From a virus: a stretch of DNA of 23,795 nt. Below, piece by piece: positions 12,566 to 20,746 of this stretch. The position numbers and the translations under genes were made by a program. How positions within the stretch are numbered: the first letter of the stretch is position 1; each line of letters starts with the position of its first letter. The DNA lies in IMG/VR virus record IMGVR_UViG_3300025118_000149, positions 1 to 23,795 of that record. One strand, written 5' to 3'. The notes under the pieces were generated by a model. The model made no database searches. It worked only from the letters and a program-made list of their open reading frames with translations, and was not told the DNA's origin.

Positions 12566-14503
12566 CTATGCCATTCCTTCAACAGCATCACCTGTTGCAG
12601 CACCCATAGCTCTAGCTAATGCTGGTTTTGGACCTGATAAAGCACCTTCCAATACTGCAGCTACTCTTTCAAGTTTTTGAGTTGTTTCAGATTGTAATGC
12701 TTCTAATCTTGAAGTATCTACTCGTCCTCCACCTCCAGTTCCACCACCAATAGCTCCTGCCAAACCTGGCGCAGCCATTAAATCATCATTTTTACTTAAT
12801 TCAAATAAACCACCCTCTTTTGGTGACACCATTGTTTTACCTTTAGCTGGACTAATTATATCACCCGCAGGAGCAGCTGAAAGAGCTCCAATCATTGAAG
12901 CAACAGCTGCAGTAGCCAAACCAACTAATACAGGTGTTCCAAATCCAAGAGTAGTCGCAGAACCAGCTGCAGCAGCAGAAAAGAATCCTGCTATTGCATT
13001 ATATATGTTTGCAGCGGCTGCTAACATAGCTTTTCCTTTTATTGCGACGAATAATCCAAGTAAAGCTGGACCCATTCCAATAGTACTATCAATTACCTCA
13101 ACTAAACCACCGAATGTACCAACTATAAAATCTAATGTTGGGCCTAATGTTTCAGCTAATGTAACACCTATTGATTGTAAGTTATTAATTAAAGACGCTG
13201 TAGCGGTTAAAACTTCTTCTGGTATTGGTTTAATTTCTGTCTTAGATAATGCACCTTGAAGTGTTAATGCTTCTTTTTCTTTATTTACAATTTTTGCTAA
13301 TTCACCAACCTCTACACCAGCAGCGTCTGCTAGGGCTTTTCTTTGTATAGCATTCAGTCTATTAAATTCTTCAGCACTTCCGAGTTGTTCAACAACTGCA
13401 GCTGTAGCTCCCTCTATATCATTTGCCAATGCTAACTCTCTTGCTTTTTGGAAGTTTAATTTTCTACCAATTAATACTGACGCTTCATTCTCTGCATTTA
13501 AAGATGATTGAAAGTCTAATAATCCACTTGTAATTTTTTCAACTGATTGTAAATTTATTCCTAATTTTCTAGCTTGAACTGCAGCTCTTAAAATATTCTC
13601 ACCACCTTTATCTGCAAATTGTGCAAAGAACTCCGATGATTGTGCAACATCAGCTAATACTTTATCTGGTGCAACATTGTTAGCATTTGCCAATGAAGTA
13701 GTTGAAGCTAATAAATTAGCTGCTTGGTCACCAGTGAGATTTTGAGTCTGTGTGAATAAACCAATTAACTTAGTAGTATCTGTTAAACTAGCACCTGTTG
13801 ATACTGCTAATCTTGATACATTTTCTGATAACTTAGTAGATTCGGAGACACCAAGTCCAAATTCATTAGCTAAATTTGATGTTGCTACTTGTGCTTCTTC
13901 AGCACTCAACCCTAATGATGTAAATTGTGCATTTGCCCCAGCCAACTCATCTCTAAATTCCGTAACACCAATAACACCAAATTGGTCACCAATCGCTTGT
14001 TGAGTAGCGTTGAATGTTAATAGTGCGGCTGTAGCTATGGTTATTGGATTAGTTAAAAATGAACCTATGGAAGCACCAATTCCACCGAAAGCAGAATCTA
14101 CTTCACTTAATCCTTTTTTAAATGAATCTTGTATTTCAAGTGATTCTATCTGTACATCTAATGCAGCTTTATCTGTTTGAAGTGATTTTATTTTAGCAGC
14201 ACTAAACCCCTTTTGAAATTTACCAGCTTTAGTTCTCGATTTAGATAATGTTTCTTCAATTTCTGATTGTTTACTTTTTAGATTACTTATTCTCTGATCT
14301 AAACTTAAATTTTTATTATTATTTTGAACTAATGTAGCTAAGACAGTTGCTCTATCTTTCATATCATCAGTAATGTTTTTTGATGAGTCTTTTTGAGCTT
14401 GTAAAAGAGTTGCGTATTGTTGAGTTAAATTATTTTGTTCACGCAATCCTTCATTGATTTGTGCCTGTAAATCTTTTTTATCTCTTATTTCTTCGTTGGC
14501 CAT
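12566..14503 (-). CDS. Tail tape measure protein
   Basis: This 645-residue protein would set tail length and line the tube. The N-terminus (1-130) is coiled coil with many Gln/Lys. A hydrophobic stretch follows (about 142-168: IGASIGSFLTNPITIATAAL). Then comes a long Ala-rich helical body containing the typical tape-measure segment DTTKLIGLFTQTQNLTGDQA. A strongly hydrophobic block lies at 479-545 (PALLGLFVAIKG, LAAAANIYNAIAGFFSAAAA, VGLATAAVASMIGALSAA). A Gly-rich linker and a C-terminal helix end the protein. At the usual 1.5 angstrom per residue it predicts a tail of roughly 97 nm, close to T4. It lies downstream of the gp26-like chaperone candidates and upstream of baseplate genes, as expected. 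Its ATG has no good Shine-Dalgarno and is 4 bases after the previous stop, so coupling is likely. Confidence 0.85.
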   Translation of the reverse strand: MANEEIRDKKDLQAQINEGLREQNNLTQQYATLLQAQKDSSKNITDDMKDRATVLATLVQNNNKNLSLDQRISNLKSKQSEIEETLSKSRTKAGKFQKGFSAAKIKSLQTDKAALDVQIESLEIQDSFKKGLSEVDSAFGGIGASIGSFLTNPITIATAALLTFNATQQAIGDQFGVIGVTEFRDELAGANAQFTSLGLSAEEAQVATSNLANEFGLGVSESTKLSENVSRLAVSTGASLTDTTKLIGLFTQTQNLTGDQAANLLASTTSLANANNVAPDKVLADVAQSSEFFAQFADKGGENILRAAVQARKLGINLQSVEKITSGLLDFQSSLNAENEASVLIGRKLNFQKARELALANDIEGATAAVVEQLGSAEEFNRLNAIQRKALADAAGVEVGELAKIVNKEKEALTLQGALSKTEIKPIPEEVLTATASLINNLQSIGVTLAETLGPTLDFIVGTFGGLVEVIDSTIGMGPALLGLFVAIKGKAMLAAAANIYNAIAGFFSAAAAGSATTLGFGTPVLVGLATAAVASMIGALSAAPAGDIISPAKGKTMVSPKEGGLFELSKNDDLMAAPGLAGAIGGGTGGGGRVDTSRLEALQSETTQKLERVAAVLEGALSGPKPALARAMGAATGDAVEGMA

Positions 14504-14507
14504 TTAA

Positions 14508-14759
14508 CTAAACACCCTTAATAAAATCTTTTAATTTGAATTTATTGAGTTTAATTTTTTTCTTTGAACCATAGTCTTTCATTTCGTCATTCATCATTTT
14601 TTCTAAAGTTTCTACTTTTTTGTTTAAACTTTGAATGTCTTTTTTAATTTTACTATTTTTTTTGAGTTGGGGGAAGACTTTAAATATTTGTAGAAGATTA
14701 TCAAAGAATCCCTCTTTAATAATAGTATTGTTTTTCATATATGATTTTTTCTTTGACAC
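14508..14759 (-). CDS. Small basic coiled-coil protein, unknown function
   Basis: This 83-residue Lys-rich protein has a central amphipathic/coiled-coil helix (KIKKDIQSLNKKVETLEKMM, about 38-57) and a basic C-terminus. The start is a GTG with AGGAG 6 bases upstream. An overlapping ATG two bases earlier gives only eight codons. It lies between the gp26-like/frameshift pair and the tape measure, where tail-assembly accessory proteins are common. It is first in a unit headed by the 15-base late element. I do not recognise the family. A tape-measure chaperone or hub accessory protein is a guess from position. Confidence 0.6.
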   Translation of the reverse strand: MSKKKSYMKNNTIIKEGFFDNLLQIFKVFPQLKKNSKIKKDIQSLNKKVETLEKMMNDEMKDYGSKKKIKLNKFKLKDFIKGV

Positions 14760-14815: not shown

Positions 14816-15046
14816 TTACCTTTTAAATCTTGGGTTGGTTTTAGATTTTGATTTTTGTTGAGCCTTTTTCATCTCATCATTTTCTTTTTTACGAGTTTCT
14901 GATAATTGTTTGTAATAGAAATTTCTTAAATATATAGGCATATCATATACATCGGAATGTGTGAAACCTTTTCCATAATACATTAATTGAAATATTTGTT
15001 CGTGAATCTTAGGTTTGTCTTTAGGATTCAGGCCAAAAAAACCCAA
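14816..15046 (-). CDS. gp51-like small tail-assembly frame, probably expressed by frameshift
   Basis: This open frame of up to 76 codons encodes GLNPKDKPKIHEQIFQLMYY, then GKGFTHSDVYDMPIYLRNFY, and ends in a Lys/Gln-rich basic tail. Similar small proteins follow gp26 in marine T4-like phages, and T4 itself has gene 51 after 26. There is no ATG in its first 20 codons. The only early start is a TTG (15046) with no Shine-Dalgarno, and an in-frame TGA lies two codons before it. The frame overlaps the end of the gp26-like gene by 26 bases across GGGTTTTTTT. The natural reading is that ribosomes shift +1 (or -2) on that run, giving a fusion of about 314-315 residues, like lambda G-GT. The alternative is independent initiation at TTG or at the ATG near codon 22. 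Confidence 0.7.
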   Translation of the reverse strand: MGFFGLNPKDKPKIHEQIFQLMYYGKGFTHSDVYDMPIYLRNFYYKQLSETRKKENDEMKKAQQKSKSKTNPRFKR

Positions 15047-15761
15047 CTGTCATTGGTATATTTACCTTGACAGTTTCACCTCCAATTTCTATTTCCTGTG
15101 ATAACTCAATATCTGGTGAATTTTTTTTGATTTGTTCTCGTAAAAACATTGAATCTCTTGATAACATATTTTGAGATATATCATTAATTACTGATTGTGA
15201 ATTATCACCATCAACTTCTTTAATAATATATCTTAATCTTGTAGTTAATTCAGGAGATACAGAACCTAATTTCTTAGAAGCTTTTAAATCAGTTTCAATT
15301 AATCTTTCTTCCTTACCTGTAAGTAAACTAAATTTAATTTTCTTTTTAGATATTGGAAGTGTTATTTCAAATAAATTTTCTGAAATACCTTTTGGTAATT
15401 TTTTAAATGGACAATCCGCTAAATTAAATGTATGATTTATTGTTTCACCATTATTTGGATTTGTAACTTGACATTCATACTCAGGCCCATAAGCTAATAT
15501 TCTAGCTGCAACCATTACAGCATTTTTATCACCCAATATCATATCATCTGTTTTCACACCATCTGTTAATATTAATGAATCCAATAATCTATCAATCACA
15601 ACACCTTTTTTAATAAGATTCTGTGATGTTAATATATCTTCTTCTTTTGCAGTCATATACTTGACTTCCACTTTACCCTCTTTTAAAGGATGCCCTTCTG
15701 GATATAATTTACCCTCACTTGGTAAATCAATTATTTCACTTGGAAATTTATTATCTGCCAT
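15021..15761 (-). CDS. 26: gp26-like baseplate hub/tail assembly protein
   Basis: This 246-residue protein opens with FPSEIIDLPSEGKLYPEGHP (5-24) and KVEVKYMTAKEEDILTSQNL (31-50), which I recognise from gp26-family proteins of T4-like phages (T4 gp26 is 208). The remainder has a beta-rich segment around YECQVTNPNNGE, followed by ITLPISKKKIKFSLLTGKEE. It ends in IPMTVGFFWPES. T4 gp26 is described as a hub component or assembly factor. The position upstream of the tape measure, and an overlapping out-of-frame partner, fit a tail-assembly chaperone. GGAGG precedes the ATG. The last codons contain the G3T7 slip site. Confidence 0.8.
   Translation of the reverse strand: MADNKFPSEIIDLPSEGKLYPEGHPLKEGKVEVKYMTAKEEDILTSQNLIKKGVVIDRLLDSLILTDGVKTDDMILGDKNAVMVAARILAYGPEYECQVTNPNNGETINHTFNLADCPFKKLPKGISENLFEITLPISKKKIKFSLLTGKEERLIETDLKASKKLGSVSPELTTRLRYIIKEVDGDNSQSVINDISQNMLSRDSMFLREQIKKNSPDIELSQEIEIGGETVKVNIPMTVGFFWPES
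15035..15044 (-). promoter_or_regulatory. Candidate programmed +1/-2 frameshift site
   Basis: On the minus strand GGGTTTTTTT is read GGG TTT TTT TGG in the gp26-like frame. Skipping one T, or slipping back two, continues as GGC CTG AAT in the downstream frame. A -1 slip meets TGA within three codons, so it is excluded. Mu uses -2 and SPP1 uses +1 in tail genes. Confidence 0.55.
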
Positions 15762-15773
15762 TATAACCTCCGA

Positions 15774-15953
15774 TTATTTTGATTCGGAAACAGACGCTTG
15801 TCTATAACCTGTAACTAATTTTTTTATTTCACCAATGGCTTTTCTAGCTCTACCACCAGCTGCTTTCGTACCTTTTTCTGAAAATACTGAATGATTTTCT
15901 TCAAATTGTTCGAATAATTCTTTTATATCATTATATAATTTATCTGTTGACAT
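15774..15953 (-). CDS. Histone H1-like (Hc1-type) small DNA-binding protein
   Basis: This 59-residue protein has the layout of bacterial H1-like proteins: a short helix (LYNDIKELFEQFEENHSVF), then the motif EKGTKAAGGRARKAIGEIKK (26-45), then LVTGYRQ. The K-x-K-A-A-G-x-R-x-R-K-A pattern is typical of the small H1-like proteins abundant in Bacteroidota. It has a good GGAG 6 bases before its ATG and lies between the lysozyme and the gp26-like gene under the same late promoter element. It may condense phage DNA, act on host chromatin, or be packaged. Late placement favours a packaging or virion role, by inference. It is short but convincingly coding: the neighbours are spaced around it at 12 and 21 bases. 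Confidence 0.75.
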   Translation of the reverse strand: MSTDKLYNDIKELFEQFEENHSVFSEKGTKAAGGRARKAIGEIKKLVTGYRQASVSESK

Positions 15954-16555: not shown

Positions 16556-17044
16556 TTAGAATTTAAGTATTGCGTAATCATATCGTAATGTTAGTGCAAT
16601 TTCTACAGGATCTGATGAATCAAATGCCATATCACCAAAATTAGCTGATTGTATCCAAGCTCCTTTTAATTCCCATTCTTCAACAGTCGCTCCAACTGGG
16701 TCTAAAACATTAAATGTTATGTTTTTCTTATAAAAATCAGAATATCCATCTCTACCAGTTACTGATTCGTGGTGTAATCTTACCCATTCAATTACTTGTT
16801 GGGAAGCACTTGGTACGATTGGGTCGTATAAAGTAATTTCTAAAGGTTGCCATCTTGTTTTACCTTTAACATATCTTGTAACATTCATATGTTCTAATAT
16901 TACTTCATCTGAATCAACTTGAGGTCGATTTGCAGTTTTAATTAAATATGCATTGATACCATCTATTTGCATAATAAATCTATTTTTGAGCTTTGGCTCA
17001 AAAGGGGTAAACATTATATCTTGTGGTTCTAATAATTCAGCCAT
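16556..17044 (-). CDS. 19: Tail tube protein (gp19-like)
   Basis: This 162-residue protein (T4 gp19 is 163) stacks as rings to form the inner tube. Family features include KLKNRFIMQIDGINAYLIKT (19-38), VILEHMNVTRYVKGKTRWQP, EITLYDPIVPSASQQVIEWV, and a C-terminal strand region DSSDPVEIALTLRYDYAILK. It is alone between a late element (17082-17096) and a strong hairpin terminator (16495-16531). This fits a protein needed in high copy and separate control from sheath. The leader and first bases TAGGAGAAATTCAATGGC are identical to those of the sheath gene. Confidence 0.93.
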   Translation of the reverse strand: MAELLEPQDIMFTPFEPKLKNRFIMQIDGINAYLIKTANRPQVDSDEVILEHMNVTRYVKGKTRWQPLEITLYDPIVPSASQQVIEWVRLHHESVTGRDGYSDFYKKNITFNVLDPVGATVEEWELKGAWIQSANFGDMAFDSSDPVEIALTLRYDYAILKF

Positions 17045-17164: not shown

Positions 17165-18973
17165 TTACTCTGGAAAAGAAGCACCTGTTGGTTGTATTGT
17201 GAAATCTAATACAATAAACTCAGCAGTTCTTGTAGGTTGTAAGAATAATTGTCCGACTAATTGATTTCTATCAATTGTGTCAGGTGTGTTATTCGTTTCG
17301 TCCATTACTACTCTAAATGCACTCAATCCACTTTGTGATTGAACTTGTTCTAAGAATGGATTAACAATTCCCAAGAATTTTCTTCTTGTTGCTGCTGTGT
17401 TTTGTTCAAATACTAAGAATCTTGATGAACTTGCAACAAACTTCTTAACTTTGATAAGTAATCGTCTTACATTGATTCTATCAAGAGCACTTGATTTTTT
17501 CTGTAATGTTTTTTGTCCAAATACAGTCACCCCTTGTCCAGGGAATGTTGCGATTGGATTAACATTTGAATCATACAATGTATCTCTATCAGATTGAGTT
17601 AGTTTTCTTTCAGCTTGAAGTGCAGTTGTGATTCCACCACGATTTAAACCAGCTGGTGCAAACCATGGATGAGCAACTCTATCGTTGAATGCATATATTC
17701 CACCCATTACTGTTGAAGGTGGCACCCATCTTTGAGTTCCAGCAACTTGTGAATCAGGAACTTTAATCCATGGCCAATACATAGCTGCAAAGTTTGAATT
17801 TCTAGCTTCAGCTTGTGTTACAGCGTTCGCAACATTTTTACCATAAAGAACTGGGTCAAGTACTGTAAAACAATCAGCTCTATCTTCACAAACATCAATA
17901 GCTTTTGCAGTTACGGTTGAGTGAATAGAGTCAATGATACCAGGCATTAAGATTAAATTAATATCGAACTCATCTTGGTTTTTTAATATATTTAATGCTT
18001 GAACATAAGCATTTGTTCCATCAGCACCAGTCGATAATACATATCCTTGTGAACCAGCAGATGATATATTTTCATAGAAATTATAAGTAGCATTTGTAGC
18101 TGTACCAACTCGATTACCTAAAGCATCAAACCCACTCACTCCGTTTGCACCACCAGTAAATCCACCATGTGATGAACCACTACCAGCAGCTGGTAATGAA
18201 CCAGAAGCACCACTTAATCTAATACTTCCATTTTCATCCAAATAATCATTTGTTAATGAAGTTACAGTTGATACTCTTACAAACCTTGATTTATTTGGAT
18301 ATGAACCAGTTAATTGTAAGAATGGATTTGAATTTTCATCAGTTCTTACAGTATAAACTTGATCTCCAATTGCTTTAGCAACATAATTGTTTGAATTTGG
18401 GTCAAGATTTACACCTGTAAATGTTTCTAATGTTTGTTTTCTTTTAATATTATCATTACCAGCTCTAATCAATAATGTAAATGTACCTTTTGAATTATTT
18501 ACATTTGATATTTCGTATCTAATGTTATGTTTTGAACCACTAAGATTAATATTATTTGTAGTCACAGTAGTATCAGCGTTGTTCATTATTGCACCATCGG
18601 CTAATGTTTCTAATGTGAATGAACTATTACCACCATTTGCATCGTCACCACTACCAGTAGCAACAGTAGCAGTAGCTGGACTGAATGTTCCATCTAATAT
18701 TCTTACTACAGTTAATGTGTCTGAATTTTTTAAATATTCTTCAGCTGCATGTGATGTTAAAAATTGGACTGATGAACCAGTTGAACCATTTTTAAATACA
18801 TCTCCAAATTTCGCTTGGAAATCAGAAAATGATGTTACAACGGTTGGGATTCCTGCAGGACCTTTTAAGGTAGGTCCGATTAGAGCAGCTCCAATATCAG
18901 CGACAGCAGAAGGTAAAAATGTCTGATCTATTTCATTTGTAAATACACCAGGACTTATAATTTTTTCGGCCAT
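17165..18973 (-). CDS. 18: Contractile tail sheath protein (gp18-like)
   Basis: The sheath subunit surrounds the tube and contracts on infection. The 602 residues start AEKIISPGVFTNEIDQTF, the usual sheath N-terminal arm. The early domain contains SAVADIGAALIGPTLKGPAG and later AAEEYLKNSDTLTVVRI. The variable protruding domain (about 100-290) is rich in Gly, Ser, Asn and Thr. The conserved C-terminal contractile domain includes INVRRLLIKVKKFVASSSRF, VFEQNTAATRRKFLG, and ends with FIVLDFTIQPTGASFPE. T4 gp18 is 659 residues. It is a one-gene unit between the element at 19039 and the terminator at 17112. AGGAG precedes the ATG, and a leader hairpin lies at 19015-19036. Confidence 0.95.
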   Translation of the reverse strand: MAEKIISPGVFTNEIDQTFLPSAVADIGAALIGPTLKGPAGIPTVVTSFSDFQAKFGDVFKNGSTGSSVQFLTSHAAEEYLKNSDTLTVVRILDGTFSPATATVATGSGDDANGGNSSFTLETLADGAIMNNADTTVTTNNINLSGSKHNIRYEISNVNNSKGTFTLLIRAGNDNIKRKQTLETFTGVNLDPNSNNYVAKAIGDQVYTVRTDENSNPFLQLTGSYPNKSRFVRVSTVTSLTNDYLDENGSIRLSGASGSLPAAGSGSSHGGFTGGANGVSGFDALGNRVGTATNATYNFYENISSAGSQGYVLSTGADGTNAYVQALNILKNQDEFDINLILMPGIIDSIHSTVTAKAIDVCEDRADCFTVLDPVLYGKNVANAVTQAEARNSNFAAMYWPWIKVPDSQVAGTQRWVPPSTVMGGIYAFNDRVAHPWFAPAGLNRGGITTALQAERKLTQSDRDTLYDSNVNPIATFPGQGVTVFGQKTLQKKSSALDRINVRRLLIKVKKFVASSSRFLVFEQNTAATRRKFLGIVNPFLEQVQSQSGLSAFRVVMDETNNTPDTIDRNQLVGQLFLQPTRTAEFIVLDFTIQPTGASFPE

Positions 18974-20443: not shown

Positions 20444-20746
20444 CTATTTATTCTTCTGTTTATAAATTTTTATAATTTTTCCACTCGGACCAGACCTTAT
20501 ACCTTGACCACCTGGACCTGGACCTATATCTCCCTTTTTTGGACCAATAATGGGTTGATGACCATATTCGAATATACCAATATCATCTCCAAAATTAGAT
20601 GATATCGCATCACTTATAGGTGTATAACTACTACCAAATTTTATTTTACCTTTAGATGATATCGCATCACTTATAGGTGTATAACTACTACCAAATTTTA
20701 TTTTACCTTGTGGAGCGAATACACTTTTCAAATCTTTTAATGCCAA
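20444..20746 (-). CDS. Small protein with a perfect internal tandem duplication
   Basis: This 100-residue protein of unknown family begins MALKDLKSVFAPQ, then two identical 19-residue units containing GKIKFGSSYTPISDAISS. An acidic stretch (FGDDIGIFEYG) and a Gly/Pro-rich end (GDIGPGPGGQGIRSGPSG) plus a basic tail follow. The start is a TTG, but AGGAG sits 8 bases before it inside the end of the upstream gene, so initiation there is credible. Without the duplication the protein would be 81 residues. Its N-terminal decapeptide resembles those of the 538- and 638-residue structural proteins. It sits in the neck/tail-top operon, where a small structural or assembly role is likely but unproven. 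Confidence 0.65.
   Translation of the reverse strand: MALKDLKSVFAPQGKIKFGSSYTPISDAISSKGKIKFGSSYTPISDAISSNFGDDIGIFEYGHQPIIGPKKGDIGPGPGGQGIRSGPSGKIIKIYKQKNK
20595..20709 (-). repeat. Perfect 57-bp tandem duplication
   Basis: Two copies with a 57-base period match at every position (20595-20651 and 20652-20708, plus one base). The period is a multiple of three, so the frame is preserved and 19 residues are duplicated. The lack of any difference, even at silent sites, points to a very recent event. Confidence 0.95.

Follow-up and report, generated by a model that had tools for sequence, protein, structure and literature searches.

A tail gene resembling gene 26 of phage T4, carried on a viral fragment of 23.8 kb (IMG/VR record IMGVR_UViG_3300025118_000149, positions 1-23,795; hereafter the window), very probably specifies two forms of a tail assembly chaperone, the longer of which would arise through a +1 slip of the ribosome into an overlapping gp51-like frame. 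The evidence comes from the layout of the two frames, its conservation, the coding character of the tail frame, the startless tails of many relatives, and a codon signature at the slip site. The front part of the protein is homologous to both gp26 and gp51, and the pair is positioned between the tail tube and tape measure genes. From these comparisons we infer that ribosomes slip in living cells, in which direction and how often, and that the products act as chaperones. The features of the locus are as follows.

17165..18973, minus strand: tail sheath protein (phrog_23, E 9e-80; PF04984)
16556..17044, minus strand: tail tube protein, gp19-like (phrog_4542, E 3e-30; PF06841 just under its cut-off)
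15774-15953, minus strand: Hc1 histone H1-like protein, an ORF of 59 aa (PF07432, E 1.6e-15)
15021..15761, minus strand: gp26-like gene, predicted short form ('G'), 246 aa, with an ATG preceded by a GGAGG Shine-Dalgarno sequence and the C-terminus VGFFWPES*
15035..15044, minus strand: candidate slip site GGG TTT TTT T (in the 0-frame GGG TTT TTT TGG), from the sequence, with a +1 slip of tRNA-Phe on UUU-U
15021..15034, minus strand: overlap read in both frames, from the sequence, as the end of WPES* in the 0-frame and as GLNP in the +1 frame
14816..15034, minus strand: tail in the +1 frame ('T'), 72 codons, GLNPKDKPKIHEQIFQL...RFKR and a stop, gp51/DUF6760-like, kept in all relatives
14508..14759, minus strand: small ORF between the chaperone gene and the tape measure gene (weak matches only)
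12566..14503, minus strand: putative tail tape measure protein, 645 aa, assigned on position and length

Read on the minus strand, the last codons of the gp26-like gene are GTT GGG TTT TTT TGG CCT GAA TCC TAA, in which GGG occupies 15044-15042, the seven-T run 15041-15035, and the 0-frame stop TAA 15023-15021. The second frame is entered at the T run by a +1 (or -2) change and continues to a stop at 14818-14816; a -1 change leads directly to TGA, a stop of which an earlier note on this DNA had also spoken. The same note described the second frame as lacking an ATG for 21 codons, with a TTG that has no Shine-Dalgarno sequence and a stop two codons before it, and each of these details was confirmed: the TTG is at 15046, the frame opens past a TGA located two codons upstream of it, no Shine-Dalgarno sequence accompanies this TTG in the window, and the first ATG is codon 22. 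A second frame that is open across the overlap and has no start of its own is what a lambda G/GT-type pair would show. The lambda comparison extends to gene order, since the pair lies between the tube gene (16556-17044) and the large ORF at 12566-14503, which agrees with the comparison made in the earlier note to lambda G/GT and its place ahead of the tape measure gene; a lysozyme-like gene and the Hc1 gene lie between the tube gene and the gp26-like gene. Likewise, a large ORF is present 3' of the tail frame in 61/87 relatives, at a median distance of 314 nt, and an annotated tape measure gene occupies the equivalent place in immuto, SP-15, and LIS04.

It is proposed that most ribosomes would read the gp26-like gene to its stop, yielding the short form. 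A minority would slip +1 with tRNA-Phe on the UUU that precedes a U (or C) in the Phe-Phe (FF) pair, re-pair on UUU or UUC, and continue into the tail, giving a predicted long form of 314 residues. On the model of lambda gpG/gpGT, the domain shared by both forms would cover the tape measure protein, tube or hub subunits would be recruited through the rare tail, and both forms would then leave; a lambda-like role is thus suggested for the window pair.

The gp26-like protein scores 34.2 bits against PF12322, above the curated cut-off of 24.5, which places it in the T4 gp26 family, and it also matches phrog_150 (E 9e-11). The 23.8 kb window, itself a fragment, contains one PF12322 gene; G003 and G004, relatives of 148 kb and 120 kb, also contain one each. 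Neither a sequence search among solved structures nor a DNA-level search among phages found a relative. The gp26-like part and the tail part were modelled separately with AlphaFold2. For the gp26-like protein (pLDDT 89) the two best PDB matches are 3klu, YqbN (Z 5.0), and 2ob9, the HK97 tail assembly chaperone (Z 4.7), scores that stand above those of unrelated entries but are too low to prove homology and fall short of what would be telling for a tail-chaperone fold. YqbN, encoded by a phage-like element, is of the tail-chaperone type. The tail is modelled as three helices (pLDDT 83), with no significant match among viral structures. Its PDB matches, the best being RecQL4 (Z 5.3), were discounted, as they look like a common helix arrangement.

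Relatives were collected through the gp26-like protein, giving 80 IMG/VR loci, 12 phage records, and 12 contigs from metagenome-assembled genomes (MAGs). Most of the loci are metagenomic, and they are related to one another, so that the counts given here overstate independence. A complete 3' end of the gp26-like gene is available in 78 of the 80 IMG/VR loci, the other two contigs stopping too early. The layout of T run, overlap, and +1 tail is present in all 78 and in 11/11 MAG contigs (from bacterial bins) that reach the junction, which supports the frameshift joining of a gp26-like gene to a gp51-like tail put forward in the earlier note. Flavobacterium phage immuto and Microcystis phage Mel-JY01 share this layout, and it is found more distantly in Streptococcus phage GXN1, Listeria phage LIS04, Bacillus phage SP-15, Rhodothermus phage RM378, and the large uncultured phage LR756508, most of which have variant slip sites. 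The slip site is retained as NTTTTTTTGGCCT or NTTTTTTTACCCT in nearly all relatives; in nearly all of the 78 IMG/VR loci the T run, or its variant, is followed by GGCCT or ACCCT. Among 87 distinct loci, the 0-frame stop is 15-36 nt past the first slip codon. The earlier note had raised the question whether relatives keep the G3T7 run and the overlap; the overlap and the T run or a variant of it are kept, but the G3 is not, the preceding codon being GGG, AAC, GAG, CGA, AGC, or others, with a third base that is never T. Homopolymer runs are error-prone, and a sequencing or assembly indel within one long gene might be imagined; since both the run and the region of the 0-frame stop recur in approximately 90 independent contigs and in isolate genomes, an error of this kind is hardly credible.

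The tail, which the earlier note had described as conserved-looking, is present in all relatives and has the consensus GLxPxxKPxIHEQIFQLxYYGxGFTxxDVYxMPxYLRxFYxKKL followed by a charged end, with invariant Y, P, and R positions and a length of 62-86 residues when complete. With phrog_634 the window tail gives E 0.018 and the best of 38 relatives E 0.0016 (6/38 match), consistently at the end of the profile. With PF20546 (DUF6760) the window tail scores 15.7 bits (E 0.016), which does not reach the cut-off of 27 bits, and 9/38 relatives match (best E 1.5e-4); PF20546 was also recovered blind in the window (E 8.7e-4). Past the 0-frame stop, the tail frame has a pN/pS of 0.36 when pooled (78 pairs) and of 0.16-0.27 against the nearest relatives, values from which purifying selection is seen to act on this frame.

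A conserved tail might instead be made as a separate protein, by re-initiation or from a non-standard start near the 0-frame stop. In the window a TTG precedes the T run by 5 nt; the junction of some relatives is close to a TTG, GTG, or ATG, where minor separate initiation is possible; in relatives whose tail is read by -1, an ATG is frequent just past the stop, and gp51 of P-SSM2 is annotated in this way; and PAU and the injection-system-like locus L234 have a Shine-Dalgarno sequence and an ATG there. The window TTG, however, lacks a Shine-Dalgarno sequence, 37/85 loci have none of ATG, GTG, and TTG up to and including tail codon 9, three -1 relatives (L209, L211, and L212) have kept the slippery heptamer with no ATG, and the codon signature described below tracks the direction of the shift. 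Separate initiation is therefore very unlikely to be the route by which the tail is made.

Frameshifting being the favoured reading, its direction can be addressed from the slip sites. The earlier note had left the choice between +1 and -2, and both do enter the second frame in the window. Cognate +1 re-pairing of tRNA-Phe (UUU to UUU or UUC) is possible at one or another Phe codon of the overlap in 92/92 loci, a slippery site conserved throughout. A -2 shift, as is known in phage Mu (PMC5009743), would add one extra Phe (VGFFFGLNP), and the T7 run present in most loci, taken alone, fits it equally with +1, cognate -2 re-pairing being possible in 85/92 loci owing to this run. In the remaining seven (L001, L003, L004, L031, L055, L066, and L067) the T run is only 3-5 long and has no cognate -2 re-pairing, whereas +1 works. 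Because these 7/92 loci allow neither -2 re-pairing nor homopolymer slippage, +1 ribosomal frameshifting is favoured; +1 is the more likely direction on this evidence, the -2 shift is very unlikely, and a +1 slip of peptidyl-tRNA-Phe would be the simplest single mechanism.

Slippage of RNA polymerase on the T run, with one U lost or two added and normal reading thereafter, would place the change in the transcript. The seven-T run found in 82/92 loci suits this explanation, but runs of 3-5 retain the same frame relation, one added U would lead to an immediate stop in the window, and the base before the run, which is never T, would be left unexplained; polymerase slippage thus appears highly improbable. 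Part of the T run reflects protein constraint, because T4 gp26, where no shift occurs, also keeps the FF pair in its protein sequence.

The codon signature separates the loci by direction. No T is found before the run in any of 87 distinct +1 loci, where 36.1 would be expected from synonymous use in the same genes, and this absence spans codons for Gly, Asn, Glu, Arg, Asp, Gln, Ser, Lys, Ala, and Thr. As the T-less third base holds over the codons of ten amino acids, many separate changes are implied. A T in this position would create the -1 heptamer T_TTT_TTT, so its absence removes a competing -1 site. Where Tyr follows the run in the +1 loci, it is encoded by TAC in 16/16 (background 23%). 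The reverse pattern is seen in 70 distinct cyanophage-type loci, in all of which a T precedes the run (expectation 42.5) and TTC encodes the second Phe (background 25%). The contrast between the +1 and -1 groups is plain from these sequences, though shared descent inflates the figures.

No clear stimulator was identified at the +1 site. The A site holds UGG or UAC rather than a stop codon, and the anti-Shine-Dalgarno signal next to the site is weak, so the pairing of an A-site stop with a Shine-Dalgarno sequence a few nucleotides upstream, as in prfB, is absent. Nor does the site resemble the X_XXY_YYZ heptamers of dnaX or of the cyanophages, with an open -1 frame: there is no T before the run, and in the window the -1 frame stops at once. 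Among the +1 loci, no RNA structure beyond chance and no consensus fold was detected. A purine-rich stretch at approximately -37 to -19 of the slip site in these loci shows anti-Shine-Dalgarno pairing above background; it was rejected as a stimulator of known type, being too far upstream.

Cyanophages, KVP40, and Aeh1 appear to make both forms through a -1 shift at the same FF codons. In 79/80 IMG/VR loci similar to P-SSM2, T_TTT_TTC is present, the 0-frame stops after one further codon, and the gp51 tail occupies the -1 frame. The heptamer T_TTT_TTC is also present in S-PM2, KVP40, Aeh1, and phiW-14, and T_TTT_TTT in HTVC008M and phiM12. GAGGG, which can pair with the anti-Shine-Dalgarno sequence, is located approximately 9 nt upstream in 97-99% of the -1 relatives, and a downstream stem-loop (GTATGGCTC/GAGTCATAC) has a mean z of -2.3 and one pair with a compensatory change; from sequence, these are textbook stimulators. 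The gene, the slip codons, and the tail are thus the same as in the window, but the shift is -1 on T_TTT_TTC, accompanied in the cyanophages by GAGGG and the stem-loop, whereas the window has a predicted +1 shift and neither element. The sole exception of the 80 (L183, near 2180) no longer has the heptamer, and its gp26 continues in frame into gp51; no second gp26 copy was found in this 236 kb record.

Related arrangements were observed in contractile-injection-like or prophage loci of bacterial genomes. In L230, L233, and L234 a PF12322-like gene is followed by DUF6760 in the -1 frame, which may indicate frameshifting or coupling, and GGGGAG/TGATG in L234 suggests coupling. In L231, L232, and L236, DUF6760 is fused in frame to the PF12322-like gene.

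In T4, the same two products are supplied by separate genes, 26 for the short form and 51 for the long. PF12322 matches T4 gp26 (E 8e-65) and, in T4 gp51, the N-terminal ~200 residues (E 1.8e-53), phrog_634 matches the end of gp51, and gp26 and gp51 match each other by BLASTP (E 1.7e-6). Judged by sequence, 26 and 51 are divergently encoded paralogues supplying the two forms. Examination of 11 named phages of the T4 superfamily for PF12322 showed two such genes in T4, RB43, and 44RR2.8t, all without a slip site, and one in P-SSM2, S-PM2, HTVC008M, phiM12, phiW-14, KVP40, Aeh1, and Vi01, in each of which the tail occupies a different frame at the gene's 3' end. Both forms would therefore be retained in all, with duplication where the frameshift is absent. 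The T4 pair shares with the window the PF12322 front and the kind of tail (phrog_634), gp51 joining the two as the predicted frameshift product would; it differs in consisting of two divergent genes with no slip site, gp26 ending GLKEFFELL with TTC TTT G. The proposal that T4 26/51 is a split version of a tail chaperone needs correction: gp51 is more than a second half, as it carries the PF12322 front as well as the tail.

Both T4 proteins are listed as hub assembly chaperones, gp51 being essential and absent from the particle (PMC3004832). Cyanophage gp51 has been reported to lack the first ~200 residues, at ~20% of the T4 length, and Aeh1 to lack gp51 (Sullivan et al., 2010; PMC3037559); the gp26-gp51 overlap would account for both. 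The G/GT frameshift has been described in a standard review as conserved in long-tailed phages 'except T4' (PMC5009743). According to citing papers, T4-like phages with a short and a long fused TAC gene were described by Vladimirov et al. (2022) (PMC10885494), to whom poly-T -1 signals in the TAC genes of T4-like phages are also credited (PMC12846349). As far as these citing accounts extend, the T4 arrangement is already published, and what is new here is the +1 version in a broad lineage and its codon signature.

Similarities with other phage systems are partial. Lambda G/GT and the HK97 chaperones share an overlapping pair between tube and tape measure genes, with a short form and a rare frameshifted long form; the lambda shift, however, is -1, no sequence similarity was found, and the structural match is the weak one to 2ob9 noted above. 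A +1 shift in a phage tail gene is known in haloarchaeal HSTV-2 and in Listeria phage PSA (PMC5009743), the latter using a Pro codon next to a stop or a pseudoknot, whereas in the window the slip codon is Phe UUU-Y and the A site holds a sense codon. The two-gene tail chaperonin of 0305phi8-36 (orf143/144), made with no frameshift (PMC2147016), is likened to the window by gene form alone. On balance, it is somewhat more probable than otherwise that one chaperone, at the same Phe-Phe codons, has switched direction in evolution, being +1 here and -1 in cyanophages and in certain phages of vibrio and aeromonas, or has given way to gene duplication, as in T4, and that +1 on UUU-Y, lacking a stop or a known stimulator, is a type for which no described equivalent was found.

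This comparison fits T4-type phages and their distant kin keeping both products by three routes: +1, -1, and duplication. Natural +1 and -1 sites at one codon pair provide a test bed for the determinants of frameshift direction. Public annotations of such genomes truncate or omit the tail: it is recorded as a separate hypothetical protein, cut to an internal start, or left out (L002, 4737-4973; L001, 4842-4952; and, after the gp26-like gene, L005 and L007). Elsewhere in the window, the Hc1 ORF just upstream of the gp26-like gene is a chromatin-type protein within a tail operon, and a 100-aa ORF at 20444-20746 on the minus strand contains a direct repeat of approximately 18 residues, with GKIKFGSSYTPISDAISS present twice.
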